DNA of 64,000 bases from Mycoplasma suis str. Illinois (GTDB lineage: Bacteria > Bacillota_I > Bacilli_A > Mycoplasmatales > Mycoplasmoidaceae): contig NC_015155.1 in the NCBI RefSeq assembly GCF_000179035.2, positions 1-64,000 on the forward strand, in the 5' to 3' direction. The position numbers were made by a program, and so were the translations under genes. This document shows positions 33,191 through 53,858 of the stretch, piece after piece (the first letter of the stretch is position 1; every line of letters begins with the position of its first letter). The notes under the pieces were generated by a model. It had not been told where the DNA came from, did not search any database, and saw only the letters and a list, made by a program, of their open reading frames with translations.

Positions 33191-34129
33191 ATGGCTTTTT
33201 TCGGGGGATTGTCAACTAAAATTCTCTCAATTATTGTGTTAAGCCTCTCTGGTAGCGGGGCTATAGCCGGTTCCGCGATATATAAAAATAGTCATCAAAA
33301 CCTTTCAGAAGATTCAGAAAAAAATTTTGAAAATTCTGATAACAATTTAGATTCACAAAAAGAAGGAGAAATTTCTCCTTCTCTAACCATTAACGAAGAA
33401 TCTGCAAAAACTTCTCCAATAAGCTCAGAGGGAACACAACCTTCTCCACAACCTGAAGTCTTATTAATCACTAAAGATCCTTCTCTACTTCAAGAACCTG
33501 CAAGTAGTAAGGAACAATTAACTCAACAATCTTTAGATAATTCCGAACAAATTAATTTAGAAGTATCTTCTCTAGAAAAACCTAAAAACTCTACTGAAGA
33601 AACAACTAAGAAATCTAGAAAACCTAGAAGAGAAATTAAAGAAGTATCAATTCAAGAAAAAATAGAACAAGAAATAAAGCAACGAAAGATATCTTTGGAG
33701 AGCTTGTATAAGGATAGTGTGGGTGGAGAAACACAAGCCAACTATAAGGCTTGTGTTTTCTATCAAGAAAATGAAGAATTTGATGAAAATGATTCTGATA
33801 TTTCTGAGGGAAGAACTAAAGAAGATGAAAGTCATGATTCATGTGATGGTCAAACAATTTGATCTTCAAATAAGTTTGACGGAACTAAGGGAAAAGGTTT
33901 TTGAGTCAGAGGTCAAGAAGAAATGGCAAAAAAATTATTAGAAAAGAATTTAAGTGAATTAGAAACTCTTGGATTTGCAAATAGTAAAGAAATAAATGAT
34001 TCTTCAAATATATTTAGTAATTTGAAGAATGATGTATGTTTAGTGAATCATTCACAAAGAGAAGAAAAGAAGTGAGTAGAAATTAGTTGTTCATTTGAAA
34101 AGTCAAATGAACTAGTTAAAGAAATTTAA
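33191..34129 (+). CDS. Paralog family A, member 1: exported variable protein
   Basis: First gene of the array (312 aa). The leader MAFFGGLSTKILSIIVLSLS continues GSGAIAGSAIYK, a hydrophobic export signal or N-terminal anchor with no lipobox Cys. Residues 30-140 are a Ser/Glu/Pro linker ending in a basic patch RKPRREIKE. The core reads SLESLYKDSVG, KACVFYQ, ITEGRT-like ISEGRTKED, SCDGQTIWSS, GFWVRGQ and WVEISC, with Trp as TGA throughout. Related in layout to the next 18 genes. Surface exposure is inferred from the leader; function unknown. Confidence 0.75.
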
Positions 34130-34131
34130 TA

Positions 34132-34953
34132 ATGGCTGCACTAGGACTAACTGCTAAGATTCTTTCAGCTGTTATTGTTGGAGTTGCAGGATCTGGTATT
34201 GTTGCTGGCTCAGTAATTGCTACCAGCAATAACAGTTCTTTTGCAGAGAATGTTGATTTAAAGGAACAAATTAAAGGTCCTGAAATTTCCGGCAATAGAG
34301 AAGTTCCTCCCCCTTCAACTGAAGATAATGACTCTAAAGGTTCTGATGATGTTTCAGAAGCGCAAGATCCTGAAACAGAAAAAGTTTCTGAAAATTCAAA
34401 GAATCCTGAACAAAATAATAGAGTTTCTTCTTCTTATAGAAGAGTGAGACAAATTAAAGAACAAGAAAAAGAACCAAATATTAGAGATAAATGGGATTGA
34501 GAAATATCTAAAAAAGAAGGTGTTTGATTGGAAAGCGTTTATTGAAACGGAGAGGGAGATTTAATGGCAAAAAATTGTATTTTATACAGAAGAAATGAAG
34601 TAATAAATGTAGAAAGTGAATTACAAAATGAAAACTTTGACATTACTGAGGGAAGAACTGTAGCTAACAGAAATCATGGATCTTGTGATGAACAAACACT
34701 TTGATCTTCTAGAAGATTAGAGAATGATGATCATAAGGGAGTTGGTTTCTGAGTTAGAGGTAAAAGAAGTTGAGTTAATAAATTATTAAGAGTTAATTGG
34801 AATAATCTTTCTTCTGATGGATTTACAACTCAAAGTGTTTCTCTAAAAACTTCTGAAGAATTAGATAAAAAATTCTGTAGTATAGAGAGAAATGATGGTC
34901 TTTTATTGGAAATTAGTTGTATTAAACAAACAAATCAACTTCTAAGAAGATAA
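34132..34953 (+). CDS. Paralog family A, member 2
   Basis: 273 aa, starting 2 bases after member 1. The leader MAALGLTAKILSAVIVGVAG then SGIVAGSVIATSNN is nearly identical at the DNA level to that of member 4 (36006). The linker is short (about 65 residues) with basic YRRVRQIKEQ before the core. The core includes WDWEISKKEGVWLESVYW, KNCILYRR, ITEGRT, SCDEQTLWSS, GFWVRGKRSW and LEISC. There are many TGA Trp codons. Probably cotranscribed with member 1; a hairpin follows it. Confidence 0.75.
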
Positions 34954-34961
34954 ATAAATAG

Positions 34962-35015
34962 GTTAGCCCTTTGGGGGCTGACCTTATAGTTTAAAATTAA
35001 AAATTAAATGTTCTC
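34962..35015 (+). promoter_or_regulatory. Hairpin + conserved 30-base leader cassette, copy 1
   Basis: The hairpin GTTAGCCC/GGGCTGAC (34962-34982) is followed by a 30-base AT motif (34986-35015, ATAGTTTAAAA... to ...AATGTTCTC) that recurs unchanged before the genes at 37037 and 39877. It probably ends one transcript and starts the next. Confidence 0.65.
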
Positions 35016-35028
35016 TGCAAAATAAATT

Positions 35029-36006
35029 ATGCCTTTACTAGGAGTTTCTTCAAAGATTTTGTTATCTACAGTTATAGGAATAGTAGGTTCTGGAGTTATC
35101 GCTGGATCTGTTGTAGCTTCCAGAAATAACAATGTAAATGCTGTTGAAAAAGAAGTTGTCGTTAACAACAATCCAAATAATTTAGAAGGACAACAACATT
35201 TATTGCCTGATTATACTTCCCAGACAAAGGGAGAAGATTCTCAGAAATCTTCTGAAATATTGGAGGATAGCGATCATTTTTCACCACATTCAAAAGTTAG
35301 TGATCGAGGAGAACCTGAAGCTTTATTAATTATTAGAGAATTTTCTTCACAACAACCCAAGAAACTTGAAGAACAATTACCTAAACAATCTTTAGTTAGT
35401 TTTCCAAAAGATGAAGAATCTTTTGCTGAAAAATCAACTTCTGAAATTGTTCTCCCAAAATCTAGAGAAAGTTCTAGGGGAGGTAAAAAAGTTAGAAAAG
35501 AAGTAATTGAACAAACAGATGAAGAAAAGTGAGAATCAGAAATAGTTAATAGAGAGATATCTTTAGAAAGTCTTTATAAAGATGGATTTGCAGGAAGTCA
35601 AGAAGCTAGTGATAGAAGCTGCATCTTATATAGAAAAGAAGAAGAAATAGATGATGATAACTTTGACATTACTGAAGGAAGAACTATAGTAGATCAAATT
35701 TATGAATCTTGTGAGAATCAAACTACTTGATCTTTAAGGAGATTTGAGAAAACTAAAGGAAAGGGTTTTTGGGTTAGAGGTGAAATTGAACTAGTAGATA
35801 AATTAATGAGAAGCAATTGAGAGAATCTGTTTGTAGCCGGTTTCGCAGAAAAGAGAGAAACTCCAGCGGAATCTGTAGATGCATTAACTCAACTTAAAAA
35901 AGATTTGTGTAGTTCTGAAAAAACTACAAGAGAAGGAAACATTAATTGATTAGAAGATAGTTGTTCTTTTGACAAGTCAAATGGATTAACTAAAGAAATT
36001 AGATAA
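35029..36006 (+). CDS. Paralog family A, member 3
   Basis: 325 aa with the second leader type, MPLLGVSSKILLSTVIGIVG then SGVIAGSVVAS. The linker runs to about residue 155 and ends with the basic patch RGGKKVRKEVIEQ. The core has ISLESLYKDGFAG, RSCILYRK, ITEGRT, SCENQTTWS, GFWVRGEIELV and WLEDSCSF. It begins after cassette copy 1. Its TAA shares one base with the ATG of member 4 (TAATG), so the two are likely translationally coupled. Confidence 0.75.
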
Positions 36007-36956
36007 TGGCTGCACTAGGACTAACTACTAAGATTCTTTCAGTTGTTATTGCGGGAGTTGCAGGATCTGGTATTGTTGCTGGCTCAGTAATTGCTGCCAG
36101 CAATAACAGAGTTAGTGTTGAAAATATAGCATTCGAAAAGCAATCTAAAAATCCTGAATCTTTTGATAGTTTAGAAAGTTCAAGTGATGATTCTTCTGGA
36201 AAAGTAACTTCACACTCAGACAAGATAGAAAGTTCTAAAGATTCTGTTGATGGACTAAAAGATCAAGAGACAGTAAAAGCTGTTGAAAGTGAAAAAACTT
36301 TGCCTTCTATCCCTGAATTTACAGAAAAAACTCTATCCTCAAAAACATTGCCCGAAAGTAAGGGGGATGAAACTCAACAACAAATATCTTCTTCGGTTAG
36401 TTCTGAGACTGGAACTCCAGAAAAAAGCAACTTTAGAACCAAAAGTAGAAAACAATCTAGAGATATAGAGGAGGAGAAATTAAGTATTCGTTATAAGCGA
36501 GAACAAGAAGCAGCTAAAAAATTAATTGGTTTAGAGAGTGTATATATAGATGGAGTAGGTACTGGAGAATTAGTTACAAAAGGATGTATTATCTATAAAT
36601 TTGGGGAAACAATAAAGAATCAAACTGGAGATGAAAATTTTGATATAACAGAGGGAAGAACTGAAGAAGGTAAAAAACATAATTCTTGTGATGAATTAAC
36701 TCTTTGATCTTCAAACAAGTTAGATGTAGATGATCATGAAGGAACAAGTTTTTGAGTAAGAGGGGAAAGAGGCCTAGTTAATAAATTATTAAGAGAAAAT
36801 TGAGATAATTTGTCAACTTCAGGACTTATCTCAAAAGAATTAGATAAGAAAACATCAGAAGGATTAAGTAAAGAATTTTGTTCAATAGAAAAAGATGATG
36901 GAATGTGAATGGAAATTAGTTGTTTTAAGTCAACAAAACAAACTCTTAACAGATAA
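36006..36956 (+). CDS. Paralog family A, member 4
   Basis: 316 aa with leader MAALGLTTKILSVVIAGVAG then SGIVAGSVIAASNN. Roughly the first 100 bases match member 2 almost exactly, while the linker shares nothing obvious with it. The basic patch is KSRKQSRDIEEE. The core reads IGLESVYIDGVGTGEL, KGCIIYKFG, ITEGRT, SCDELTLWSS, SFWVRGERGLV and WMEISC. It forms a two-gene unit with member 3. Confidence 0.75.
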
Positions 36957-36969
36957 CTAAGTAGTTTAA

Positions 36970-37023
36970 GTTAGTCCAAAAAGGACTAACTCAATAGTTT
37001 AAAATTAAAAATTAAATGTTCTC
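36970..37023 (+). promoter_or_regulatory. Hairpin + conserved leader cassette, copy 2
   Basis: The hairpin GTTAGTCC/GGACTAAC (36970-36990) differs from copy 1 in both arms yet still pairs. The same 30-base AT motif follows at 36994-37023. Changes on both arms that keep pairing support a functional hairpin. Confidence 0.65.
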
Positions 37024-37036
37024 CAAATATTAAATA

Positions 37037-37960
37037 ATGCCCTTTTTAGGAATTTCTTCAAAGATTTTGTTATCTGTGCTCACGGGAGTAGTGGGTTCTG
37101 GAGTTATTGCTGGTGCTGTAGTAGCTACAAGCAATAACAATGTAAATATTTCTGAACAACAAACAATCAGTTTAGGAAAAAACCAACATTCAACTTTTAC
37201 TGTTCCTGAGGCTTCAAAAGGACAAGAAGTTGAACTAATTTTTAGGGAAGAATTAAGTAAAGGAATTGATGGAACAAAAAATCAAGAACCTTTACAAGAG
37301 CAATTAAGAGTAACTGAAGAAAAGTCTAGAACTCCTGATCAATCTTTAAGTCAAGAAATCTCTGAAAAAACTCAAAACACTCCTAAAGTAGAAGTTCAAC
37401 ATGAAAATCCAGAAAACAAAAGAGAAAGTTCTGTTCCCGCAACACAAAAAGTTTCAAAAACTAAAAAACCAAAAGTTAGGGATCCAGAATTAACTCCTCA
37501 AGAGAGATGATCTAAAGAAATAGTTGATAGACAAATAACTTTAGACAGTCTTTACATAGATGGAATTGGAGATGGAAGTTCAGGAGTTAAAAGTTGTGTT
37601 TTAGTTCAAAAAGGAGAAACAATAGAGGATGAAGAAGAGGAGTTAAACATACTTGAGGGAAGAACTAAATTAGGAGAAAGATATGAATCTTGTGATGGTC
37701 AAACTTTTTGATCTTCCTATAAATTTGATAATTCTTCTGGAAATGGTTTTTGAGTTAGGGGAGAAAAAGAATTAGTAAAAAAGTTATTGAAAACTAATTG
37801 AGATAGTTTGTGGCAAGCTGGCTTAACAAAAAATAAAGAAGTTAGTGAAAATGAAAACCTATTGAATGGACTAAATCTAGAAAATTGCAAAATAGAAAAA
37901 AATGATGGTCAGTGAATGGAAATTGGTTGTTCATTCGGGAAAGAGAAAGTTAGTGGATAA
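37037..37960 (+). CDS. Paralog family A, member 5
   Basis: 307 aa with leader MPFLGISSKILLSVLTGVVG then SGVIAGAVVATSNN, nearly identical in DNA to member 8 (39877). The linker is Gln/Glu-rich and the basic patch is KTKKPKVRDPE. The core shows ITLDSLYIDGIGDGS, KSCVLVQKGE, ILEGRT, SCDGQTFWSS, GFWVRGEKELV and WMEIGC. Its stop overlaps the next ATG by one base. Confidence 0.75.
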
Positions 37961-38886
37961 TGGCTGTAATTAGTCTTTCTACAAAAGTAATTTCAACTTT
38001 ATTTGTCAGTGTAGTTGGTTATGGGATTGTCGCAGGATCAGTAATTGCTACTAGAAAAAATGAAGGAATTGTTGAAAGGTCTTCAGCTTTTCAACAAAAC
38101 AGTCATGACGATAAAGATTCAAAAGCTGAAGAAGATAATGAAAAATATTCAGAAAAAGAAAATATACCTTCTTTACCTTCAGAATCTACAAATTCAGAAG
38201 ATTCAGCAGAAAAAATAGAAGAATCTTCTCCAATTCTTTCAGAACAGACCGATCAATCACAATCTTTTTCAGTTGAAATTATTGAAAGAAATTCAGATAT
38301 TTCTTCCACTAATTCACTTACAGAAATTAAAGAGTTAGAACAGAAGCCTACTTCTGGAAAAAAAGTAACTAAAAAGCAAAGAAGAGAAGAGCCTTCTCTA
38401 AAAGAAAGAATTGAAACAGAAATAAAAAATAAACAAATATCTTTAGAAAGTCTTTATAAAGATGGGATTGGAAATGGAGATCTAGAAACTAAAGGATGTA
38501 TTTTGGTTAAGAAAGGAGAAGAGATTAAAGAAGAAAATGAGGAAGAAGAATTAGAAATAACTGAAGGAAGAACTAAAGAAGGAGAAAGTCATGATTCATG
38601 CGATAACCAAACTATTTGATCTTCTGTTAAATCTGAAGAAACTAATGGAAAAGGATTCTGAACAAGAGGGGAAGAAAGTTGAGTTAAGAGATTAGTGAAA
38701 GTTAATTGAGAAAATTTAAGACTTGCTGGATTCACTAATAAAGATCAAATTAGTGATTCTGATGATCCTTTAAATAACTTGAAAGAAGATTTGTGTCTTT
38801 CAAGTCAAACACAAAGAGAAGGAGGTCATTGAATAGAAATTAGTTGTATTTTTGATAGAAAAACTAATTTAGAGAGAAGTAATTAA
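37960..38886 (+). CDS. Paralog family A, member 6
   Basis: 308 aa with leader MAVISLSTKVISTLFVSVVG then YGIVAGSVIATRK. The linker is Glu/Ser-rich and the basic patch is KKVTKKQRREE. The core has ISLESLYKDGIGNGDL, KGCILVKKGE, ITEGRTKEG, SCDNQTIWSS, GFWTRGEESWV and WIEISC. Second gene of the member 5/6 unit, coupled by the TAATG overlap. Confidence 0.75.
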
Positions 38887-38889
38887 TAA

Positions 38890-39793
38890 GTGGCTGCATT
38901 AGGTTTAACTACAAAAATCATTTCAGTTATTGTTGCGGGAGTTGCAGGATCTGGTATTGTTGCGGGCTCAATAATTTCTTCAAGCAATAACCAAGTTAAA
39001 AAAGAATCTGTAGATATAAAAGATCAAATAGAAAAAACTAAAGTATCATCTTCAGACAAATCTGATTTGTCTGTTCCTGAAGAAGATGAAAAAAGAATTG
39101 ATATTTCTTCATAAGATTCTGAAATATCAAAAGATATTGGAGTTCAAAAAATTACAGAAGAAACTATTGATTCTCAAGCAACAACTGGAGAAATAAGTGA
39201 TAAGGTTCAACCTCAAGTAGTTTCTTCCGTTAATGTTGAAAGTTCACTAGAAGAAAAGAAAGAATTATCTGAAACACCACTTGATAATAGTCAAGTTTCT
39301 TCCGGAGAGAGAAACAGAAATAAAAGAGAAAATTCGAGAGTAAGGGAAGAAGAATATAAGAAAAGAGATCGTTGGGATTGAGAAATAGTTAAAAGACATA
39401 TTGCTTTGGAAAGTCTTTATAAGGATGGAATTGGAAATGGTAAAGAAGGATTAATTCATCAAGGATGTATTCTTTACAAAAAAGATGAAAGTATAGATGA
39501 AGATGGAGAAGAATTTGAAGAACTATAAAAGATCAGACTTATGCTTCATGTGATGGACAATCTCTTTGATCTTTAAATAGATTTGAAGAAACCAATAGAG
39601 TTGGTTTCTGAGTTAGAGGAGAAATCAATTTGGTTAATAAATTGATTAGAAAGAATTGAAGTAATTTATCTTCCCCTGGGGGTTTACAACTAGTCAAACT
39701 GATAAATCAATTAAGGGTTTACTAAGCACTAATTTGTGTAGTGTAGAAAGAAATGATGGAGATTGAATAGAAATTAGTTGTGTCGTTAAATAG
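38890..39793 (+). pseudogene. Paralog family A, member 7, broken in three places
   Basis: GTG start with leader MAALGLTTKIISVIVAGVAG then SGIVAGSII. A TAA stop (39112-39114) interrupts the linker, after which the same frame continues with the basic patch RNRNKRENSRVREE and core start IALESLYKDGIGNG. A second break occurs near 39526, where a short deletion removes the EGRT segment and shifts the frame to KDQTYASCDGQSLW. A third shift lies in the G5 run near 39678-39682, before NLCSVERNDGDWIEISC. Clearly a decayed copy rather than one sequencing error. Confidence 0.85.
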
Positions 39794-39809
39794 TATTTTT
39801 TAAATAAGT

Positions 39810-39863
39810 GTTAGCCCATTTCGGGCTGACCTTATAGTTTAAAATTAAAAATTAAATGTTCTC
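39810..39863 (+). promoter_or_regulatory. Hairpin + conserved leader cassette, copy 3
   Basis: The hairpin GTTAGCCC/GGGCTGAC (39810-39830) is followed by the 30-base AT motif at 39834-39863, before member 8. The bases after the motif (CTAAATATTAAATAATGCC) also match copy 2. Confidence 0.65.
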
Positions 39864-39876
39864 TAAATATTAAATA

Positions 39877-40812
39877 ATGCCCCTTTTAGGAATTTCTTCA
39901 AAAATTTTGTTATCTGTGCTCACGGGAGTAGTGGGTTCTGGAGTTATTGCTGGAGCTGTAGTAGCTGTCAGAAATAACAATGTAAATACTATTGAAAAAG
40001 TAACACAAAATAATGATCAAGTAGAAAAACCTCTTTTACCTTCCCCTAGTGAAGAAATGGAAAGAGTAGAAGTTGAAATAATCTCTAAAGGACCTTTAAA
40101 TGAGATAATTGATGGTCCGAAAGATCAAAAACCTACTCAAGAAAAATTAGAGGTAAAACAAGAATCTACTGAAATTTCTGAACAACTCTTAAATTCAGAA
40201 ATTTCTTCAATACAAAAATCTGATGAAGAAAATATTCAGCCTAAAAATTCTTTAGACAATAAAAAAGAAATAGTTAGTCCTTTATCTCAAGAAGAATCTA
40301 AAAAGACTTCTTCTAGAAAGGGAAGAAAAAATAGAGAACAGGAACCAATATTAAGTAATGAAGAAAAATGAGAAAAAGAGATAACTAGTCAACAAATTTC
40401 TTTAGAAAGCATTTATAAGTTTTCAGTTGGAAGTACAAGTGAAAACGAATGAAGAAAAGGTTGTGTTCTATTCAGAAAAGAAGAAAAACTTAGTGAAGAT
40501 GAAGAAGATCTAGATATTATGGAAGGAAGAGTTGTAGAAGGATCTTTTGATTCTTGTGGTTGACAAACATCCTGATCATTAAATAAGTCTGAAGGAGAAA
40601 ACCGAACAGGTTTTTGAGCTAGGGGAAAAATTGAATTAGTGAGTCAATTAATAAATAATGATTCAAATTGAGATACTTTGAAATCAGTTAGCTTTGTAAA
40701 AGTTAATGGAAATAAACAGGGAGTGGAAGGATTAAATACAGATTTATGTAATGTAGATAAAAAGAGGAGTGATTCTTGAGTAGAAGTCGGCTGTGTAGCT
40801 AAAGAAAGTTAA
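39877..40812 (+). CDS. Paralog family A, member 8
   Basis: 311 aa with leader MPLLGISSKILLSVLTGVVG then SGVIAGAVVAVRNN. The linker is Glu/Pro/Ser-rich and the basic patch is SRKGRKNREQEP. The core reads ISLESIYKFSVGSTS, KGCVLFRKEE, IMEGRV, SCGWQTSWS, GFWARGKIELV and WVEVGC. Here DxQ of the motif becomes GWQ with an extra TGA Trp. Its upstream region and first 90 bases copy member 5. Confidence 0.75.
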
Positions 40813-40815
40813 TAA

Positions 40816-41689
40816 ATGGCCTTACTAAGTTTTTCTACAAAAATTATTTCTGGCGTAATAGCCAGCATTGCTGGTTCCGGAATTATTGTTGGGAACTGTT
40901 TTAGCTACTAGCAATAACAAAGTAGAAGTTTCTGAAAATAATGATTTAAAACATCAAGAGACTGCTAAAGAAGATGTCTTTTTTTCTCCCCCTTCTTCAG
41001 GTGAGGAAATAGAAATTATTATTAAAGTTCCTCCGAAAGGAGAGGAGGCTTCTCTTGATGTAGAAAATAAGAGAGAAATTGGAGAAATCTTACCTAAAAA
41101 AGATTCTGAAACTCCAAAACAATCTTTAGAAAAACAAGTAATTTCTCCAAAAGAAAATACTTTACCCAAAAAATCTGAAATTCAAGTAGAAAAAAATTCT
41201 CGAAGACCAAGAAGAATTAGGGAACACAGAGAAGAATTAACTGGAGAAAAGAAGTGAGAAAAAGAAATTGGCGATTATCAAATTTCTTTAGAAAGTATTT
41301 ATAAATATGGAGTTGGTGATGGCAGTTTATCTGAAAAAGGTTGTATTTTCTATAAGGAAACTGAAGAAGTTGATGAAGATAGTGGTCTTGACATTACTGA
41401 AGGAAGATCAAGAGAGCATTCTTATGATCCTTGTGAATGACAAACAAATTGATCTTCTAGTAGAGCCGAAGGGGAAGATAAGACAGGTTTATGAGTTAGG
41501 GGAAAAACTAATTTAGTTAATAAATTACTAAGAAAAAATTGAAATGATTTATTTGTCGCAGGATTTGCAAAAAATAAAGATATTTCTGTTGAAACAGAAG
41601 ATTCAATAAGTGAATTAAAAGATTCTTGCAAAGTTGTAAAAAAGGAAGATAATTCTTGAGTTGAAATTAGTTGCATCCCTAAAAATTAA
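40816..41689 (+). pseudogene. Paralog family A, member 9, frameshifted in the leader
   Basis: ATG at 40816 starts MALLSFSTKIISGVIASIAG then SGIIVG. An extra G in the GGG near 40890-40893 shifts the frame; the rest (TVLATSNNKVEVSE onward) continues in the next frame to 41689. It has a normal linker, basic patch RRPRRIREHREE and core (ISLESIYKYGVGDG, KGCIFYKE, ITEGRS, PCEWQTNWSS, GLWVRGKTNLV, WVEISC). Removing one G restores a normal protein. Alternatively an internal TTG at 40868 could start a version with half a leader. Slippage, error or early decay are all possible. Confidence 0.75.
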
Positions 41690-41696
41690 TTAATTT

Positions 41697-42653
41697 ATGG
41701 CTTTATTAAGCCTTTCAGCCAAGATTGTCTCTGGCTTGATAGTTAGTGTTGTTAGTTCAGGAGTTATTGTTGGAACTGTATTAGCTACCAGCAATAACAA
41801 TTCAAAGAATGTTGAAGACTTTAAGTTACAACCTCAAAATCCAATAGAAAAAGGTATAGGGCAAAAAAGAGAAGAAAAATTAAACCCTTCTGAAGAAGTT
41901 TCAGATAAAGGAGTAAAACAAGGTGTTTCTGAAAGTGTAAATAGAGAACTAGAAGTTGAGGTAGTGCTTTCTACCGAAGCTTTAGAAAAAGTAAAAATAG
42001 AGCCAGAAATTATTTCTTCTGAAAGTATTTCAGGGCTAGATTCTCAAAAAACTAGAGAAGAAGATCTTCAAAGTCAAACTCTACCTAAAGAACAAAAAGT
42101 TAACGAAGATATTAGCTCCCCTAAGGGAACTAAGGGAAAAAGAAAAGTTAGGGAGCCTCAAAAAGAATTAAGTGATAGAGAAAGATGAGATCAAGAAATA
42201 TCCAAATATCACGTATCTTTAGAAAGTCTTTACAAGTTTAGAGTTGGTAGAGAAGATCAAGATCAATGAGGAAGGGGATGTATCTTGTATAAGGGAGATG
42301 ACATTGTCGGAGAAGATGATGATTTGGAGATAACTGAAGGAAGAACTGAACAACATTCTTATGATTCTTGTAGTTGGCAAACATCTTGATCTTCGAATAG
42401 ATCTGAAGAAACCAATAAAGTTGGTTTCTGAGTTAGAGGTAAATCTGATTTAGTAAATAAATTATTAAAGAAAAATTGAGATGAATTAAAAATAGATGGA
42501 TTTACAGAATCTAAAGAAGATTTAGTTGATTCTGAGGAGAATCCTATTAGTAAATTAAGTAAAAAAGTATGTTCTTCTCTAGAGAGTGAAAATGGTTCTT
42601 GAAAAGAAATTAGTTGTGTTATCGGAGAAAATAATTTCTCCAAAGAAAGTTAA
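41697..42653 (+). CDS. Paralog family A, member 10
   Basis: 318 aa with leader MALLSLSAKIVSGLIVSVVS then SGVIVGTVLATSNN. The linker is Glu/Lys-rich and the basic patch is KGKRKVREPQKE. The core has VSLESLYKFRVGRED, RGCILYKGDD, ITEGRT, SCSWQTSWSS, GFWVRGKSDLV and WKEISC. Seven bases before the next gene the TTAATTAATTT spacer repeats that upstream of its own start, a sign of unit duplication. Confidence 0.75.
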
Positions 42654-42660
42654 TTAATTT

Positions 42661-43662: not shown

Positions 43663-43674
43663 CAAAATAATTAA

Positions 43675-43694
43675 ACAGCCCTAGAGAGGGCTGT
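43675..43694 (+). terminator. Terminator after member 11
   Basis: ACAGCCCT and AGGGCTGT form a perfect 8-bp stem with an AGAG loop, then ATTTAAG. It marks the end of the member 8-11 transcript. Confidence 0.65.
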
Positions 43695-43752
43695 ATTTAA
43701 GTAAAAAAACACACCAATAAAATCTAATGAGCCAATTTAGTAGTAGTTAATA

Positions 43753-44691
43753 ATGCCCTTTCTTGGCAGTCTATCTTCAAAAATATTGTCAACTTTAGTA
43801 GTGGGTGTTGTTAGTTCAGGAGCTATTACTGGAGCAGTAATAGCTACTAGAAATAAAGAAGTAATTAATAATGTTGAAGAAGTTATTCAAGAACCTAAAA
43901 GTGAAGGAAAGGGAAATAAAGGAGATTCTAGCGAAGAAGAAAGAGATGAAGAAAAACTAGAGATCTCGGGAGAACAACAAGAAGATCAATCTTTAGAAAG
44001 ATCAGATCCTAGCGCAAAAGAAATAAATATAGAAGAATCAAAGAATGAAGATTCTGACATTGTTCAACAAAATATTGTTGAACAAGAGGAAGTAAAGCAT
44101 GATGTTCTGGAGCCAACAAAAATTAATAATGAACCTCAAGAAGATTTAAAGGGAGAATATCAATTATCTGATGATCCCGAACCTGAAAAAGAAAGTGAAG
44201 ATTCTAAAAAACAAAGAGAAAGAGAAGAAATTGATCAATTAGGAGTTAGATTGGAAACAGTTTGAATTTATGGAGAAAGTAATAGTAAATATAGAGTTTG
44301 TGAATTTTTATCTAAAGATGATGGAAAAGATACAACAATTCTTATGGATTTATTAGAAAGTGATAATGATGATGAATGCGAAAAACAAACAGTTTGATCG
44401 GAAAATAGACATATTTCCGATTTAGGAGAAAATAAAGAAGCTATTTGAGTTAGAGGTGAAGGTAAAGAAGTGAAGAAATTTATAGAAAAGAATTGAGAGG
44501 ATTCAATCAAATCCTCTGGTTATGTAGATAAAGAAAAAAAGAAACCAGAAACTGATGAACAGAGATTAGTAGAAATAGATTTGGAAAATAATTCTTGCAA
44601 AATAGATTATCAATCTTGAAGTGAACATCAAGATTGAATGGAATTAACTTGTATTCTCAAAGAATATAAGAATTCCAAAACCTTTAGGTAA
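43753..44691 (+). CDS. Paralog family A, member 12 (VWIY subtype)
   Basis: 312 aa with leader MPFLGSLSSKILSTLVVGVV then SSGAITGAVIATRNK. The linker is Glu/Asp/Ser-rich. The core reads VRLETVWIYGESNS, RVCEFLSKDDG, TILMDLLESDN, CEKQTVWSENR, AIWVRGEGKEV, NWEDSIKSSGYV and WMELTC. Its TAA overlaps the next ATG by one base. Confidence 0.75.
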
Positions 44692-45698
44692 TGGCTTTTT
44701 TAAGTAGTTTTTCTCCCAAAATACTTTCTACTTTAGTGTTAGGAGTTGCAGGATCAGGAGCTATTACTGGAGCAGTAATAGCTACTAGAAATAAAGAAGT
44801 AATTAGTAGTGATGAAAGTGCAAACCCTGATTTAGGAGACGTCAGAAAATCTCAAGAAGACAATACTCCTTCTGAAGGTTTAGAAAAACTTAAAGGACAA
44901 AATTTCGAAGAAGATCAGCACTTAGGGAAAGATTTAGAGACAAATTTATCTAAAGAACCTTTGACCTCAGGACGAACTGATAAAGAAAATATTCAACCAC
45001 AAACACCCGAATTAAATGAAGAGCATAATAATCCAGAAACTAATTTAGAAGCTCAGGGAAAAGAAGAAGTTAAAGAGGAAAAAGAGGATTTAAGTTTAGG
45101 GAATGAAAGTGAATTTCAACATAAATCAGTTCAAGAGAATAACAATCAACCCTCCCCACAAGAACTTAGTTCTAGTTCAGAAAATGAAAAAGAACTAAGA
45201 AAACAAAAGGAAGAAGAAATAGCTAAAGAAGATAAGGAATTTAGGGATAAAGAAGTTAGATTAGAGGCTGTTTGGATTTATCAAAGTGGAAGTAGTAAGG
45301 AGAAAATGTGCATTCTCCTTAAAAAAGGAGATAACAAGAGAATTCCTGAATTAATGGAATTAATAGATGGAGATGAATCTGAGAAGGGTGAATTTGTTGG
45401 AAGTGAAGATTGTAGAGATGAAGAAACTTCTTGAACAGAAAATAGAGATGTTTATATATTGGGAGAAAATAATCAAGCTTTATGAGTTAGAGGAGAAGAA
45501 ACAGAATTTAAATCATTTATTGATTCCAATTGAAATGATTTATTAAAAGGTACTGGTTTTGTCGAGAGAGAAAAAGAAAAACCATCTACTGAAGAAGAAA
45601 GAATGAAGAAATTAGAGTCAGAAGGACATTTTTGCAAAATAACTCATAAAGAACTAGAACAACAAAAATGAATTGAATTAACTTGTTTGTCTAAATAA
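44691..45698 (+). CDS. Paralog family A, member 13 (VWIY subtype)
   Basis: 335 aa with leader MAFLSSFSPKILSTLVLGVA then GSGAITGAVIATRNK. The linker is about 165 residues, rich in Glu, Asn and Ser. The core has VRLEAVWIYQSGSS, MCILLKKGD, IPELMELIDGDE, CRDEETSWTENR, ALWVRGEETEF, NWNDLLKGTGFV and WIELTC. Translationally coupled to member 12. Confidence 0.75.
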
Positions 45699-45708
45699 TT
45701 AGTTAATA

Positions 45709-46703
45709 GTGGCTGTTCTAGGTAGTTTATTTTCAAAAATAATTTCAGGTTTAGTAGTTAGTGCTATTAGTTCAGGAGCTATTACTGGAGCAGTAATAGC
45801 TACAAGTAAAGGTTTTGAGCAAAATGTTGAGTCTCAAAATTTACAAGATATAAATTCAAAAGATTCTTTTTCGCCAAAAATAATTGGTGAAGAAAGTTCT
45901 CAAAATGAGGGCTCTCAAGCCCAAAAATTAGATTTAATGGATAAACAAAAAACAGAAATTGAAGGTTCTGGATTTGAATCTACTCAAATGGATTCAGAAA
46001 ATGAAACTACAAAAGTTAAAACTACTTCAGAACTTAAACAAGAAAAAAGTACTAGCTATAAAGAAAAACCATCAGCAGAATCTGAAAATTATGCATCAGA
46101 AGATCTAGGAATTCCCGATAATTTAGAGAATCAACAAGTAGAAATTTCAGAAGAAGAAAAACAAAGAAAAGAAGTTGAAGAATTAGAAAGGAAGAAAAAA
46201 GAGTTAGAGGAACTAAAGAAGAAATATAGAAAAGAAAGAGAAGAAAAGCAGATTTCTTTGGAAGTTGTACTAATAAATAGAGATGGAGGATTTAAAAATT
46301 CTCCAGATAAACATTGTCTTTTATACAAAGACAATGATTTATTAGAAAAAGATATTGATGTTTCTAATGCGACAGACTCAGATGAAAGTTCTAAATATTG
46401 CGATTCAGGAACAGCTGTAACTGAATGGGCAGAAAATAAAGAAATTAATAATGAAGAAAATGAAGAAGGTTTATGAGTTAGAGGAAAGAATGAAAGTATT
46501 GTTAAGTTTTTTTTGAATCTAATTGAGATTCTCTCTTAAAACCTTCTAAATTTGTTAAGAAAGAATTGAGTAAACCCAATTCATTTTCTGTTAGTTCATT
46601 CTCTGATCATTTAGATTTGGAAATTTGCCAAATAGAAGAACAAAAAGGGGAATGATTTGAATTTGGTTGCCTTTCTAGGAGAATAAAAAATTTTCAATCT
46701 TAG
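45709..46703 (+). pseudogene. Paralog family A, member 14, frameshifted in a T8 tract
   Basis: GTG start with leader MAVLGSLFSKIISGLVVSAI then SSGAITGAVIATSK. A charged coiled coil (ELERKKKELEELKKKYRKER) precedes a core with ISLEVVLINRDGG, KHCLLYKD and GLWVRGKNESIV. The frame breaks at eight T (46507-46514). The next frame gives FESNWDSLLKPSKFV, CQIEEQKGEWFEFGC and ends at 46703. By comparison with members 12 and 13, nine T would restore the FxxxNW spacing. Candidate slippage site or sequencing error. Confidence 0.8.
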
Positions 46704-46721
46704 TAGAAATTTCTTTTAAAA

Positions 46722-46742
46722 AAGCCCAGTAAGGGCTGGGAA
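46722..46742 (+). terminator. Hairpin after member 14
   Basis: AGCCC/GGGCT (or CCCAG/CTGGG) pair within AAAGCCCAGTAAGGGCTGGG, followed by AAATATTTATTACTTTTT. A weaker version of the array hairpins. Confidence 0.5.
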
Positions 46743-46806
46743 ATATTTATTACTTTTTGTAAAAATTCACTATTAATTTAGTAAGTAGAATTATTAGGAA
46801 ATACCC

Positions 46807-47836
46807 ATGAAATTATTAGGTAAGATCTTCTCTACTTTATTTATTGGTGCCCTTGGAGGGGGCACCATAACAGGAGTAGTTCAATTAGTGAATAATGGGA
46901 ATGATGAAGTTAAGGATTCTCGCGAAAATAAAGATCATTTGTTCCAGAAAGAACAAAAACAACATCATCCTTCTGAACCCAATCATGTTGTTTTTCCCGA
47001 AGGAGAGAATAAGGATACTTTTGATACCGAAATAATTTCTTTGGAGGAGATCCCACCTAAAGGTCAAGAGAAATATCCTTTTTCGGAATCATCATCTTCT
47101 AATCAATTAGATATGAATGACAAGAATTCTGAGAAAGATGATCCTATTGAGATAGATGGGATAACTTTAGAAGTCAAAGATCAAGAAAATCTTCCTACTG
47201 AAATGGATTTAGAAGAAAATTCGAGAGGAGACTTTTCTGAACAAAAAAAATTCTCCGGAAGAAGAGAAGACTGAAATTTTATTGCTTAAAAAACAAAAAG
47301 AAATGGAACAAAAGAAAAAACAATATGAAGAAGAAATAAAAAATAGAAATATTTCTTTAGAGGTTGTATGAGTAAATAAGACAGATGGATTTGCAGAAAA
47401 AGCTTGTTTTTCTTTGACAAATAAAAAATCAGGAAAAGAGATTCCTGATATTTATGAAATGTCAGAAGATGCGGAAGATTGTGATGATCAAGAAGGAATA
47501 GTTTCTTATTGGTCTTATGACAAAGAAATAAATGAAAATGTTGAGGGGTTATGGGTTAGAGGTGAAAATAGTAAGGTTAGAGAATTATTTAAGAAAAATT
47601 GAGACAATTTTTCAGGATCAGACATCATAAATAAGGGGAAAAAGGAATATTCCTTTTCTTCAATTGAAATTGAAGAATTATTGAATAAAGAGATTTGCAA
47701 AATAGTTGAAAAGACAAATAAAGAAGTAGACAGTTGATTAGAAATTGAATGTTTAATTAGTCAGGAACACATCAATGCAAAACAGGAAAGGAACAAATTA
47801 AGAAATTCATATACTTCTTCGAATAGAAGAAGTTAG
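46807..47836 (+). pseudogene. Paralog family A, member 15, frameshifted in an A8 tract
   Basis: ATG at 46807 with leader MKLLGKIFSTLFIGALGGGT then ITGVVQLVNN. The first frame runs through a His/Glu/Ser linker to a run of eight A (47243-47250), after which it hits TGA and TAA. Shifted by one base, the sequence continues as a Lys/Glu coil and the core ISLEVVWVNKTDGFAEKACF, IPDIYEMSED, GLWVRGENSKV, NWDNFSGSD and WLEIEC to 47836. Seven A would join the two. It is the second 8-base homopolymer break in neighbouring paralogs. Confidence 0.8.
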
Positions 47837-47838
47837 AA

Positions 47839-48234
47839 ATGATTTGAACTACTTTAACTAAATCCTTGCTTTCCGTAGTGTTACTGGGTTCGGTTGCCGG
47901 TGGCGGTTATGGATTTATGAAATTAACTCAAGAAGGATTACTCCCAAATAAAAATGTTGTAGATTCAGGAGATAAGGGCAGTGGAAGTTCATCAATTTCA
48001 ACTGATCATTCTTTTCCTGAACAACAGAATAGTGAAGAAGGAGTTAACTCCTTTAATTCCGGCCCTTCAACAGGAGATAGAGCTCAGACAAAAGAAGAAG
48101 GAGAAAGAAAGGAAATTCAAGACAAAGTAGAAACTCAGGTTAAAGAAGTAGATTTAAAAAATGATTCTTTAAGATCAAGTCGTCTTGCCAGCTTGCAAGA
48201 GGACAACTGAAGGGAAGGAGATACAGGACTTTAG
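47839..48234 (+). CDS. Paralog family A, member 16, truncated (leader and linker only)
   Basis: 131 aa beginning MIWTTLTKSLLSVVLLGSVA then GGGYGFMKL, followed by a Ser/Gly/Glu linker and a stop after NWREGDTGL. The Cys/Trp core is absent, and a strong hairpin follows. It may be a remnant left by recombination or a short secreted product. It starts two bases after member 15. Confidence 0.6.
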
Positions 48235-48251
48235 TTAATAAATAAGAAATT

Positions 48252-48273
48252 TTTTCCCCTTATAAGGGGAAAA
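48252..48273 (+). terminator. Perfect 22-base palindromic terminator
   Basis: TTTTCCCCTTA is followed immediately by its reverse complement TAAGGGGAAAA (48252-48273). It works as a terminator on either strand and closes the member 15-16 unit. Confidence 0.65.
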
Positions 48274-48337
48274 GAATTAAAAACTATACTTTTAAACCTA
48301 ACTAATAAAAGTTAGTAGGTCTAAAGTAAGTTAGTTA

Positions 48338-49096
48338 ATGTCTTTCTTTAGTAGTCTAGCTAATGTAGCTATTAACACTTTTATGAGTGCTGGAGCTATA
48401 GCAGGAATGGGAAACAACAATAGACAACAACCTAAAACTCAAGCAAGAAAGGAAAGTAGTTCTGAAGCCACTATAAGAACTACTTTTCCGAAAACCATTA
48501 TTCTCGAAAAGAAAGAAAATAACAAGAAACAACAAGAAAAATCAATTCATCCAGATGTAGAAACTTTTATAAGAAGAATTGACAAGAAAAAAGATCCTTC
48601 AAAAAATTGAACTGTAGAACAAATGATTGAGAATGAACAATACTATGAAGAAGATATAGAAAGATTTGGAATTATTTTGGAAACTGTTTGATTTAGAAAA
48701 AAACCAGGAAGAACAAAGTGAAGTAGACACTGCACTTTGTTAACTGATACTATTCACAACAAACAGTTTGAAAAAGTAGCTCCAATTCTTCAATGAGAAG
48801 CAGATAGTTATGATGAACAATACTCATGTGGAGTAGTACAAGCTCAAACATATTGAGCTATTAATTTAGTGGATAACAATGATCAAGAAGGAGTATGAAT
48901 TAGAGGTCAAGTGTACCATATTGAATATTTATTTGAAAAGAATCAAGATTTATTGACAGGATATTCACTCCTTAGAGATGTAGATAAGGAGTGAAAACCT
49001 TCATCTCCTAGTCCAGTTACTTGTGAAATTATTAAAGAAAGAGAAGGAGGGAGTTGACTAGAAATTAAGTGTGTTAAAAAAGATTCTTCCCCTTAA
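48338..49096 (+). CDS. Paralog family A, member 17 (short linker)
   Basis: 252 aa. The leader is shorter and different (MSFFSSLANVAINTFMSAGA then IAGMGNNNR). The linker of about 60 residues is basic and Gln-rich rather than acidic. The core is recognisable: GIILETVWFRKKPGR, RHCTLLTDT, CGVVQAQTYWAI, GVWIRGQVYHI, YLFEKNQDLLTGYS and WLEIKC. Nine TGA Trp codons in the core hide it under the standard code. Confidence 0.7.
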
Positions 49097-49109
49097 TTAA
49101 ATAGAGGTA

Positions 49110-49126
49110 GCAGCCTGTAAGGCTGC
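49110..49126 (+). terminator. Hairpin after member 17
   Basis: GCAGCC (49110-49115) and GGCTGC (49121-49126) pair around TGTAA. It is followed by AATTAACTAAAACTTTTT. Confidence 0.55.
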
Positions 49127-49173
49127 AATTAACTAAAACTTTTTAAAATCTAGTGAAATTTATTAGTTAGTTT

Positions 49174-50124
49174 ATGGCTTTACTAGGTTTATCTAGTAAA
49201 GTTTTTTATTCCATAATTATTGGAGTATTAGGGAGTGGAGCAATTGCGGGTTCTGTATTTGCTAGTAATGTTCTTGGAGAAACCAATAACAACAATTTAT
49301 TAGTTGTTGAAGGGGATAATGATGGAAATTCTGGAGAAAAAGTTCCTCCTACTTTACCTCCACCTCCTCCAGAAATTCCTTCTTTAGGAGATAAAGATGA
49401 CACGGATTTAGAAGATCTTGAAAAAGAAGATCTTGATGAAAAACCTGAAAGTAATAATGATCCTGCAAATCAAGTTAGTTCTGATTCTTCCAAAAAATCT
49501 GTAGATTCAGGGAGAAAAGAAAGCCAACAGCAATTTCTAATTTCTTCAGAAGTTCGGGAGGAAAGTGATAAAGGGGAAGACTTACAACTAAAAAATTATT
49601 CTTCAGATTCAGAAGATATAAGTGAATCTGAAGAATCTAAAAATAAAAGATACGATGAAGAAAGATTAAGGGAAGGAATAGTTTTAGAAACCCTTTGAAT
49701 TTTTAAGACTGGAGGAGGATCTTCAGAAGAAAATAGAAGTTGCACTTTATTAAAGAAAGGGGAATCTAAAAAGATTCCCAATATTATTGAGAAGCAAGAA
49801 GAGGAAGAAGAAACAGGTAAATCTTGTGATGATTATGATGCTGTAACTTCTCAATGATCGGATGAGAAAAGAATAGATGACAAAATAGAAGGTTTTTGAG
49901 TTAGAGGAGAAAATCAATTAGTTAAAGAGCTAATTAAAGAAAACTGAGGAGACAGAGATTTATTCAAAATCTCTGGTTTTGCAGAAAAAGAAAAAACATT
50001 ACCAGAAAATATTTCTGATAATTTAGGAGAATTATTTAAGGAAACCACTACTTGTTCAACGAGAATTCTTCAAGAACAAAATTGAATTGAATTATCTTGT
50101 CTGATTAATTCAATAAATCAATAA
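49174..50124 (+). CDS. Paralog family A, member 18
   Basis: 316 aa with leader MALLGLSSKVFYSIIIGVLG then SGAIAGSVFASN. The linker has a proline run (PPTLPPPPPEIP) followed by an Asp/Glu/Ser stretch. The core reads GIVLETLWIFKTGGG, RSCTLLKKGE, IPNIIEKQEE, CDDYDAVTSQWS, GFWVRGENQLV, NWGDRDLFKISGF and WIELSC. Start ATG at 49174. Confidence 0.75.
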
Positions 50125-50136
50125 TTTAATTAAGTT

Positions 50137-50742
50137 ATGTGATTTTCTAAAGTTTTTCTTTCTTCTTTAGCTTTAGGATCTATTGTTGCTGGAGGTAGTT
50201 ATTACGGATTATTTGGACTAACAAATAAAGAGAAACTCAATAAAAATGAAGGAACTATTGTTCCTTCTGAAAATGTAAGAACAAATGTTTTAGGAAATAA
50301 TAATTCCGGAAAACAAGATTTCAATACTCAAAAGAATATTTATTTAGAAGGAATTTGAAAATTCAAATTCTCTAGAGAAGCAAAAATTCAAAGAAATTGT
50401 TTTTCAATAAAAGAAAGTGATTCAGAAAAGAAAATACCTAATATAGCTAAAGAAAAAGATTTAGAAGATCTTTGCGAACAAATTGAAGAAAAATGAACTA
50501 AAGAAAAGGACATGAACCACTTAGAAAGTGGTTTTTGAGCTAGAGGTAAAGCTAAAGCAATTAAAGATTTAGTTGAAACGAATTGACAAAATTTGTTGTT
50601 TGAGGTTGGATTTGTAAAAACTAAAGAAAAACTTTCTACTCCTGAGGAAAAATTACAAGTTTTTAAACAAGCTTGTAATGTAAACAATGAGAAAATTTCT
50701 GAAGATTGACTAGAAATATCATGCTTAAAAAATTGAAATTAA
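50137..50742 (+). CDS. Paralog family A, member 19 (minimal form)
   Basis: 201 aa, start ATG TGA (Met-Trp) at 50137. The leader MWFSKVFLSSLALGSIVAGG then SYYGLFGL is shorter, and the linker only about 40 residues. The core is complete: IYLEGIWKFKF, RNCFSIKESD, IPNIAKEKD, CEQIEEKWT, GFWARGKAKAI, NWQNLLFEVGFV and WLEISC. The smallest complete member, useful for defining the core. Confidence 0.7.
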
Positions 50743-50767
50743 TTAACACATTTAAGTAGTTCACTTT

Positions 50768-50822
50768 AGACCTTTTTATAATTTCTTCTTAGACCAAGAA
50801 GAAATTGTGAGGTCTTTTTTAA
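50768..50822 (+). terminator. Nested double hairpin terminator ending family A
   Basis: The outer stem AGACCT/AGGTCT (50768-50773, 50810-50815) encloses an inner perfect 11-bp stem AATTTCTTCTT/AAGAAGAAATT (50780-50790, 50796-50806). T6 follows. It separates families A and B. Confidence 0.75.
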
Positions 50823-50859
50823 GAATTTTGTTTATAAATAGGTAATTTAATTAGTTAAA

Positions 50860-51435
50860 TTGCTGAAATTTTCACTATTCGGACTGGGAACAGTGGTCAG
50901 TGGAGGAGGCCTCTTAGCCCATTCTTATTCAGATTCAGTATTTCCTTTTTTCGGAAAGAAAGAAATATTTAAACAACCAGATAAAGTGATTAATCCAAAT
51001 GATCTTGTGGATTTTTATAAGAGTCAAGGAATAAGTGAAGAAGATTTGCTAGTTTATGAATACTTATGAATTGATGGAGATAAAGAGTGTTATCAAAAAG
51101 TTAGATTACAAAATGGTCAAGAAGCAGAAGAATTTAAATTAACTGATTGTTCTCGTTGAGATGCAAAAAACAAAGAAATTAATAAAAAAGAAATAGTGCT
51201 AAGAGTTGAGCCGAAAGATATAAATCAAATATTAGGAAAGTGAATGGAAATAAATGATGGTTTTAAAAATGATCTTTCAGAAGAGCAAAATAAAAACTTC
51301 AAAGCTAAAGGAAATGAAGATGACTTTAGCTTTGATTGCAATAAAAAGCCAATAAATAAGAGAGGAAAAAGCAACAAAGTGGAAGTTCATTGCATTGAAA
51401 AGAGAACCTTTAGTTTAGTTCCAGACCAGAAATAA
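50860..51435 (+). CDS. Paralog family B, member 1
   Basis: 191 aa, TTG start. The leader MLKFSLFGLGTVVSGGGLLA precedes HSYSDSVFPFF. Core landmarks are LLVYEYLWIDGDKECYQKV, FKLTDCSRWD, IVLRVEPKDINQILGKWMEI, FSFDCNKK and KVEVHC. It has four conserved Cys and Trp as TGA. No lipobox. Unknown function; same order of landmarks as family A but without the hypervariable linker. Confidence 0.72.
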
Positions 51436-51440
51436 AGTAA

Positions 51441-52031
51441 GTGTTAAAAATTACTAAAGTTCTTCTATCCCTTTTAGGGATAGGAACTTTTGGTAGTAGT
51501 GGTGGTTACTTAGCTTATTCTCATTCAAACTCAATATTTCCTTTTTCCAAACAATTTGGAATACTTCATGAACCTTCTAGACCTGCAGATTCTGAAGATT
51601 TAAAGAGTTTTAAGGAAGGTTTAGAAAAGGGAGAAAATATTTTGATTTATGAGTATTTAAAAATAGATGGAGAAACTGAATGTCTTCAAAAAATTAAGTT
51701 AAAGGATCAATCTGAATCTCAAAGTTTCAAGACTAGTGATTGTTCTCATTGAGGTCAAGAAAACTTAAATGAAAATCAACGAATAATAATAGTTAGATCT
51801 AGTCCTGAAGATCTGAATAATATTCTTGGAAGTTGATTGATTGTTGAAGGAGGAAATGGATTTGAACAAAATATTTCAAGAGAAGAGGGCAAAAAATTAA
51901 AAGCAAAAGGAGAAGGAGTAGACTTTACATTTACTTGCGATAAAAATCCTATGGATCAAGAAAATCAAAAAGGAAAAGTAGAAGTTAAGTGTTTGCTGAT
52001 TTCAGATAATCAACAAGAATCAACAGGTTAG
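51441..52031 (+). CDS. Paralog family B, member 2
   Basis: 196 aa, GTG start five bases after member 1. The leader MLKITKVLLSLLGIGTFGSS precedes GGYLAYSHSNSIFPF. The core has LIYEYLKIDGETECLQKI, FKTSDCSHWG, IIVRSSPEDLNNILGSWLIV, FTFTCDKNP and KVEVKC. Confidence 0.72.
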
Positions 52032-52047
52032 CCCTTAAAGAATAAAA

Positions 52048-52638
52048 GTGATAAGAACTACTAAAGTTCTTTTATCACTTTTAGGAATAGGAACAATAGG
52101 TAGTGGTGGAAGTTATGTTGCATATTCTTTTTCAGATTCTTTTCTTACTTTTGGACAAAAATCAAGAGAAATTAGTCAGGCAACCACTTTAGATTCAGAG
52201 AATCTTAAGGATTTAACTGAAAGAATACAAAAAGGTCAAAGTACTCTAATTTATGAATTACTAAAGAAAGATGGAACTGATAAAGAGTGCATAAAGAGAA
52301 TTAAGGGGGAAGAAGATAAATCACAAGATTTTCAAGATAAAGATTGTGTAGGTTGAGATTTAAGTAAGCTGGGAGAAAATTTAGAGAATAAAAAAATTAT
52401 TTGGGTCAAATTGGTTGACCCAAATCAAACAAATAGTGTATTGGGACAATGATTTGAAACTGATGGAAATAAAGGATTTCAGCAAAATAAAGATTCAGAA
52501 AATAAACAATTAAAAGCTAAAGAATCTGGAGATGAAACAATTACTTTTAGTTGTGATAAAAGTCCAATAAGTTCTGAGGGAAATTTGACAGTTGAAGTTA
52601 AGTGTATTTTGGAATTACAGAATTCCAAAACAGAATAA
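52048..52638 (+). CDS. Paralog family B, member 3
   Basis: 196 aa, GTG start. The leader MIRTTKVLLSLLGIGTIGSG precedes GSYVAYSFSDSF. The core has LIYELLKKDGTDKECIKRI, FQDKDCVGWD, IWVKLVDPNQTNSVLGQWFE, ITFSCDKSP and TVEVKC. The leader coding sequence is close to that of member 2. Confidence 0.72.
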
Positions 52639-52658
52639 GTTAGTTTTTAGCCAATAAA

Positions 52659-53258
52659 GTGGTAAAAGCTGTTAAAGTGCTTTTACCAATTCTAGGATTA
52701 GGAACTTTTGGAGGAGGTAGCTTTGCTGCCTATTCTTTTTCTGATACCTTATTTCCTGAAAATAGAAAACTAAAAGGAATTGGTAGCTCCACTACTTTGG
52801 ATTCAAATGACTTACAAGATTTGAAAGGAAGAATAAGTTCTGGAACGAGTACATTAATTTATGAATTCTTACAAATAGATGGTGAAACAAAAGACTGCAT
52901 TAAAAGAGTTAGAGAGGGTCAAGAATCAGAACCTAAAAATTTTCAAGATAGTAAATGTGAAGGATGAAATTTAAGTGAATTGGGAAATAACAATAAAAGA
53001 GTTATATGAGTCAAATATTTAGATCCTGAACAAATTAATAACACTTTAGGACAGTGATTCCGAATTAATAGTGGGGAATCACAATTCAAAAACAATACTG
53101 AAGCTGAAGACAAGAAGTTAATTTCTGGAAATTCTGATGATGACTCCATTACTTTTGAATGTAAGAAAAGTTCAATGGAGTCATCTTTAACAGGAAAACA
53201 GAAAGTAGAAATTAAATGTATAGAAAGTTCAAATAATGTTTCTGGACCAACAACTTAA
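52659..53258 (+). CDS. Paralog family B, member 4
   Basis: 199 aa, GTG start. The leader MVKAVKVLLPILGLGTFGGG precedes SFAAYSFSDTLF. The core has LIYEFLQIDGETKDCIKRV, FQDSKCEGWN, IWVKYLDPEQINNTLGQWFR, ITFECKKS and KVEIKC. Confidence 0.72.
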
Positions 53259-53267
53259 GAGATCAGA

Positions 53268-53858
53268 ATGATAAAAGCAGCTAAAGTGCTTTTACCAATT
53301 TTTGGATTGGGAGCAGCTAGTGGTGGAGGCCTAGCAGCTTATTCTTTTTCGGATTCATTGTTTACTACTATGAATCCTCTAAAAACAGTTAAAGCAGCAA
53401 CTGTTTTAGACGGCAAAGATTCAGAAGACCTTAAAGAAAACATGAAATCGGGACAAGTAACTTTAATTTATGAATCTTTGAGATCGGATTATGGAAATAA
53501 TGAATGTGAGACAGTAGTTAAGGAGGCAGATAAAGAAGAACATAAAAAATTTCAAAACAATAGTTGTGAAGGGTGAGATACTAATGGTTTAGAAAAAAAT
53601 AAAAAATCAATATGAGTTAAGTTAGTTGATGCTAGTCAAGTCAATAAAGCCTTAGGCGAATGACTTGACACTGAAGGAAGTAAAGGATTTAAAACCAATA
53701 CAGATCAGGAAAGTAAAAAACTTTCCTCTAGAAATTCTGTAGATGAAACAATTTCTTTTCAATGTGAAAAGAAATTAATAAATCCAGTTGGAAACTTAAA
53801 AGTAGAAGTTAAGTGTTTTGAAGAAGTAAAGCCTTTAACTCAAGCTTTAGAAAGTTAA
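53268..53858 (+). CDS. Paralog family B, member 5
   Basis: 196 aa, ATG start. The leader MIKAAKVLLPIFGLGAASGG precedes GLAAYSFSDSLF. The core has LIYESLRSDYGNNECETVV, FQNNSCEGWD, IWVKLVDASQVNKALGEWLD, ISFQCEKK and KVEVKC. Last of the five, followed by a 400-base gap with terminators. Confidence 0.72.

Follow-up and report, generated by a model that had tools for sequence, protein, structure and literature searches.

Tandemly clustered hypothetical paralogues, each with a signal or transmembrane N-terminus and a non-cytoplasmic part of about 200 amino acids (aa), have been described in Mycoplasma suis, a bacterium of pig red blood cells (PMC3091866, PMC3146833, PMC3958358), where BLASTCLUST split them into 69 families, the largest with 37 members (PMC3091866). 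Here we analyse one array of such genes, at positions 33,191-53,858 of a 64,000-nucleotide (nt) stretch of the M. suis Illinois genome (the window), with its genes, of families A and B, read in genetic code 4. A sequence-only reading had pointed to the large paralogous families known from hemoplasma genomes. The literature bears this out: clustered paralogues are reported from the M. suis Illinois genome, and our array, which shares with them the genome and the tandem arrangement of many hypothetical genes, must belong to that set. The reports treat separate families, whereas we find one superfamily with four cysteines, mosaicism at a leader seam and a predicted fold, none of which was found in the three papers cited. 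Because the paralogues were divided into 69 families by BLASTCLUST, the superfamily must, we infer, span many of them.

Families of the M. haemofelis and M. haemocanis type (genomes G010 and G019) share with the array a short, glycine-rich hydrophobic N-terminal leader and an organization in tandem islands. Their cores show a W...C...WC pattern, in contrast to the four-Cys WxRG core described here, and their similarity to family B is confined to the N-terminal part. Tandem proteins of another member of the hemoplasma group (L054, genome G003) combine a similar glycine-rich leader (GSxGGGSY) with a different Cys-containing core. In Anaplasma msp2/p44 and Borrelia vlsE, leaderless donors feed an expression site; unlike in these systems, each gene here carries a leader of its own, which is itself the homogenized part. 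What the array has in common with them is a paralogous surface-type family in a blood-borne pathogen, and conversion-based variation has been proposed for hemoplasma paralogues by analogy with the Anaplasma major surface proteins (PMC3146833).

Translation confirms 19 family A and 5 family B genes, head to tail on the + strand, where the sequence-only reading had placed them (Table 1). TGA has to be read as Trp, with 1-8 in-frame TGA codons in nearly all genes. The leader type (GSGxxAGSVxA) and the motifs SCDxQTxW, GFWVRGE, NW and EISC are found as noted there, and the proposed layout of leader, Ser/Glu/Pro linker and Cys/Trp core holds. The leader of this array is about 34 aa long, rich in S/V/G/A/I/L and free of Cys. 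It is followed in most A proteins by a linker of 95-153 aa (18% Glu, 13% Ser, 11% Lys, zero Cys) and in family A by a core of about 145 aa with four Cys and conserved Trp, in which L4, C23, W59, W73, R75, G76, N88, C119, E134 and C137 are invariant across 16 sequences.

Mean pairwise aa identity in family A is 0.54 for the leader, 0.37 for the core and 0.26 for the linker. The earlier claim that the linkers do not align was too strong, given that closer pairs do (A1/A3 at 0.37, A5/A8 at 0.35). A linker of about 50 aa or more is present in 57 of 153 full superfamily members, and the linker class switches at least 18 times along a rough core tree; a tree of the linkers themselves is saturated and uninformative. 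The linker is indeed the part that diverges fastest, but to call it the variable part is too simple, because it is optional and alignable between close paralogues, and the seam lies at the leader. The comparison of substitution rates that the same reading had proposed gives, for close pairs, ratios of nonsynonymous to synonymous rates (dN/dS) mostly of 0.2-0.8, thus below 1, in cores and nearer 1 in linkers. Core dS ranges around 0.5-1.4, and is about 0.5 or more in the closest core pairs.

Judged by their sequences, A, B and the other examined arrays form one four-Cys superfamily of at least 200 genes. We examined 324 kb of M. suis, comprising the window and stretches around arrays, and because coverage was confined to these stretches, the number of members is a minimum. 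A hidden Markov model (HMM) iterated from family A over the open reading frames (ORFs) of the fetched stretches recruits all B genes and the other arrays and no housekeeping ORFs, the best shuffled or reversed control having an E-value of 0.046; single linkage by blastp unites 104 of 105 sequences. The 200 members counted lie in this array (23), at 86-140 kb (75), at 157-202 kb (62) and at 483-548 kb (6, 12 and 22); members in the first chromosome half are on the + strand, those in the second on the - strand. Extension at the array edges yields about a dozen more. Exactly four Cys occur in 161 of the 200; in an alignment of 48 diverse members three Cys are invariant and the fourth is present in at least 90%. 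The superfamily signature, which is found in both A and B, consists of four Cys, a Trp after the second Cys, WxR(G) and a terminal ExxC.

The superfamily appears restricted to a lineage of two pig hemoplasmas. The A profile matches this array strongly and no other M. suis locus to a comparable degree, family A being one branch of the superfamily; outside M. suis, among 59 genomes, it matches in M. parvum (G006) only. With the 48-row profile, M. parvum gives hits at 13 places and the 57 other genomes give none. Pfam and NCBIfam gave nothing above their curated cut-offs for A3, A11, A18, A19 and B2, and no real match came from PDB sequence profiles.

The exchange seam appears to be the leader and not the linker, in specific genes and tracts rather than by free shuffling overall. 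Leaders fall into DNA classes: of the third codon positions at shared residues, 29 of 29 agree between A2 and A4 and 28 of 30 between A5 and A8, while the cores of these pairs stand at 0.67 and 0.76, respectively. Core data reject the A5/A8 pairing (P of the approximately unbiased test, p-AU, 0.011-0.017) as well as a grouping of A9, A10 and A11 (p 2.7e-6), and leader data reject a grouping of A11 with A12 (p-AU 0.002). A11 reads as a significant mosaic, with an A9/A10-type leader on an A12/A13-type core. We also searched 182 members of the fetched arrays for tracts of at least 84% identity over at least 60 nt, with physical overlaps of neighbouring genes removed. Upstream and leader DNA (-60 to +126), which makes up 26% of the length, holds 18 of the 19 paralogue tracts, the core one and the linker none (binomial 4e-10 against the 26% share, for tracts that are not all independent). 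Tracts of high identity break off where the leader ends, at about +100 to +126 nt. Window positions 34070-34284 and 35944-36158 have 82% DNA identity across the 3' end of a gene and the next leader, so junctions would move as a unit.

The core structure prediction that the sequence-only reading had suggested was run with AlphaFold on the A6 and B2 cores. The A6 model is confident (predicted local distance difference test, pLDDT, 85.6; predicted template-modelling score, pTM, 0.83), with the element order b-b-a-a-b-a-b-b (b, strand; a, helix). The B2-led model (pLDDT 79.8, pTM 0.73) has two N-terminal strands, a later strand-helix unit and C-terminal strands. Foldseek against the PDB and viral models returned nothing below an E-value of 0.2; the best match of the A core, at 0.66, was not Top7. 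VIA-align ranks the designed protein Top7 (PDB 1qys) first for the A core, with a low Z score of 3.9 over 85 of 92 residues and a root-mean-square deviation of 3.9, and finds partial PAS matches for the B model with Z up to 6.3. The modelled A core may resemble Top7 in its similar order of strands and helices; it differs in the low Z, and the B model favours the partial PAS matches.

The proteins had been proposed to be exported, and the predicted topology agrees. The mean net charge is about +1.0 ahead of an N-terminal hydrophobic segment and -0.2 behind it. Beyond residue 50, a further transmembrane-like segment was not found in superfamily members, which have a median length of 193 aa, and the even number of Cys is conserved. 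We read the anchor as uncleaved, since signal peptidases I and II are reportedly missing from M. suis (PMC3091866). A lipobox Cys is absent from every leader of this array. One superfamily subgroup outside the window differs from the remaining members in having a lipobox-like motif, LVSAC, in its leader (KLLVSACTVGGGS). A second paralogue family, apparently helical, occurs at G000 510-534 kb (L046, L047) and at window positions 54257-55399; it has an N-terminal leader in the style of the array leaders (MFTFSKVITLGVLLAGTSGLSAYLIPY) and no four-Cys core, so this leader style would be common to unrelated heads.

Intergenic gaps in the array alternate between -1 to about +10 bp and roughly 75-120 bp, the larger ones holding a hairpin, and the region contains 30 sites resembling terminators, where shuffled sequences have 7.6 ± 3.4; some of the 30 lie outside the hairpin gaps. 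This pattern suggests about nine short operons: A1-A2, A3-A4, A5-A7, A8-A11, A12-A14, A15-A16, A17, A18-A19 and B1-B5.

We lean towards the explanation that the array belongs to a standing repertoire of signal-anchored extracytoplasmic heads, encoded in short operons and diversified by duplication and leader-seam recombination. The sequences themselves show the layout in modules, the conservation of Cys, the single superfamily, the mosaicism of leaders and the restriction to one lineage, while we infer the topology, disulfides, co-expression and host contact. An uncleaved N-terminal signal-anchor (N-in, C-out) would hold each protein in the membrane. Next would come a disordered stalk, variable in length and rich in Ser/Glu/Lys, and, outside the cell, a compact C-terminal head whose four conserved Cys would probably form two disulfides. 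Since the genes seem to lie in about nine short operons, many heads could be present together. Tandem duplication would enlarge the repertoire. The stalks would then drift rapidly, the heads would change under constraint that is mostly purifying, and recombination in the shared junction and leader DNA would shift heads between leaders. The likeliest role would be contact with the host, through ligands of erythrocytes or plasma, and antigenic diversity would come as a by-product or benefit. A review lists seven hypothetical M. suis proteins as suspected adhesins (PMC11279051), which could not be matched to the array.

Several observations weigh against the repertoire. One set in the tract analysis consisted of pairs picked by their high leader identity, and constraint on the leaders at the nucleotide level is a possible alternative source of that identity. 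When nearest neighbours are compared genome-wide outside the clear cases, leader and core disagree only slightly more than equal-sized core windows do; because this general signal is weak, our claim of seam exchange is limited to certain genes and tracts. Direct comparison of the A and B profiles is weak (hhalign probability 6% and 1.5%), as is that of A with the profile of the other arrays, and the kinship of A and B is therefore transitive, through linking members and the shared motif. A strict hydrophobicity cut of 1.6 in the leader is passed by 35% of members (median 1.50), promoter-like sites in the region are not above chance (40 against 67.8 expected), and for the array genes we found no expression, localization or serology data in the literature.

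Tandem paralogues in a chronically infecting blood parasite, with mosaic genes among them and positions reported to be shuffled between strains (PMC3958358), could also form a silent archive, from which head segments are gene-converted into an expression locus for antigenic variation. We consider this quite unlikely. We saw neither leaderless donor cassettes nor near-identical heads as in msp2 or vlsE; almost all members come with a leader and start of their own, and A16 is a leader without a head. High-identity tracts are nearly absent from heads and linkers, even the closest core pairs are well separated in dS, and it is the leader that is homogenized, whereas the model needs the opposite. 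That a Mycoplasma with tandem surface-type genes should instead carry phase-variable surface lipoproteins (vsp, vlp, vsa, vlhA), with repeats or inversions as the switch, is hardly credible here: the leaders lack the lipobox Cys, Tandem Repeats Finder (TRF) detected no simple-repeat switch, the array has a single orientation throughout, and the genome is reported to encode only 3 lipoproteins and no vlp (PMC3091866). The lack of leaderless donors, near-identical heads and repeat switches thus argues against an archive recently active in gene conversion and against phase variation.

The purifying constraint on the cores, the strong conservation of Cys and Trp, and the contrast between at least 200 members in pathogenic M. 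suis and about 13 in M. parvum would suit a functional, non-antigenic set of scavenging or adhesion heads kept for binding different host molecules. This we regard as somewhat unlikely, as no ligand is known, the linkers are near neutral, and positive selection has been reported at some sites of M. suis families (PMC3958358). Plain tandem duplication in decay, with little current function, would account for the four frame-broken genes (A7, A9, A14 and A15) and the coreless A16; the genome was sequenced on the 454 platform (PMC3091866), and the frame breaks may for that reason be sequencing errors. With most of the about 200 genes intact, and with the core dS and dN/dS given above, decay is very unlikely.

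Downstream, the array is flanked by a gene for a 380-aa hypothetical protein and one for a GTPase that, on reading its sequence, is ychF-like; the other flank of the array holds trpS and a phosphoglucomutase/phosphoglucosamine mutase-like gene (- strand). The A-like genes of M. parvum lie beside ychF (L044, G006 512-531 kb) and near gyrA (L043, G006 24-42 kb), and M. suis has a single array between gyrA (window 24611-27295) and ychF (55595); with two sites in one species and one in the other, the locus may have been split or duplicated.

Table 1 Genes of families A and B and hairpins in the array (window positions)
Feature	Position	Strand	Remarks
A1	33191..34129	+	leader, linker, four-Cys core (core 33686-34126)
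A2	34132..34953	+	leader almost the same as that of A4
Hairpin before A3	34960..34984	+	terminator-like; at start of repeat D7
A3	35029..36006	+	
A4	36006..36956	+	
Hairpin before A5	36970..36990	+	seen by eye
A5	37037..37960	+	leader with 93% nt identity to that of A8
A6	37960..38886	+	core 38404-38859, AlphaFold query
A7	38890..39796	+	broken by in-frame stop and frame changes; core pieces 39397-39519, 39519-39689, 39692-39796
Hairpin before A8	39810..39830	+	terminator-like
A8	39877..40812	+	
A9	40816..41689	+	leader frame differs from rest of gene
A10	41697..42653	+	
A11	42661..43662	+	mosaic (see text)
Hairpin before A12	43675..43694	.	scored on - strand
A12	43753..44691	+	
A13	44691..45698	+	
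A14	45709..46539	+	core end runs on in a different frame
Hairpin before A15	46725..46740	+	
A15	46807..47836	+	two frames (46807-47289, 47282-47836)
A16	47839..48234	+	leader and linker, without core
Hairpin before A17	48252..48273	.	scored on - strand
A17	48338..49096	+	divergent
Hairpin before A18	49110..49126	+	seen by eye
A18	49174..50124	+	
A19	50137..50742	+	short linker
Hairpin before B1	50768..50815	+	long, followed by T run; seen by eye
B1	50860..51435	+	
B2	51441..52031	+	core 51579-52004, second AlphaFold query
B3	52048..52638	+	
B4	52659..53258	+	
B5	53268..53858	+	

As reported (PMC4423628), it is chiefly in hypothetical paralogues that the pathogenic pig hemoplasma M. suis differs from its mild relative M. 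parvum. Tentatively, and short of thinking it probable, we raise the possibility that the array represents a lineage-specific extracellular four-Cys domain, with a fold absent among natural solved structures and closest in element order to Top7, that has expanded to about a quarter of M. suis genes and forms a leader-swapping display distinguishing the two species. M. suis is not culturable, and the array offers testable entry points to many hypothetical genes without assigned function. Conversion-based antigenic variation is what is usually assumed, and the leader-seam result offers a concrete alternative to it. If about 200 genes share a common anchor and encode one four-Cys head, one structure, redox test and head panel would bear on most of them at once.

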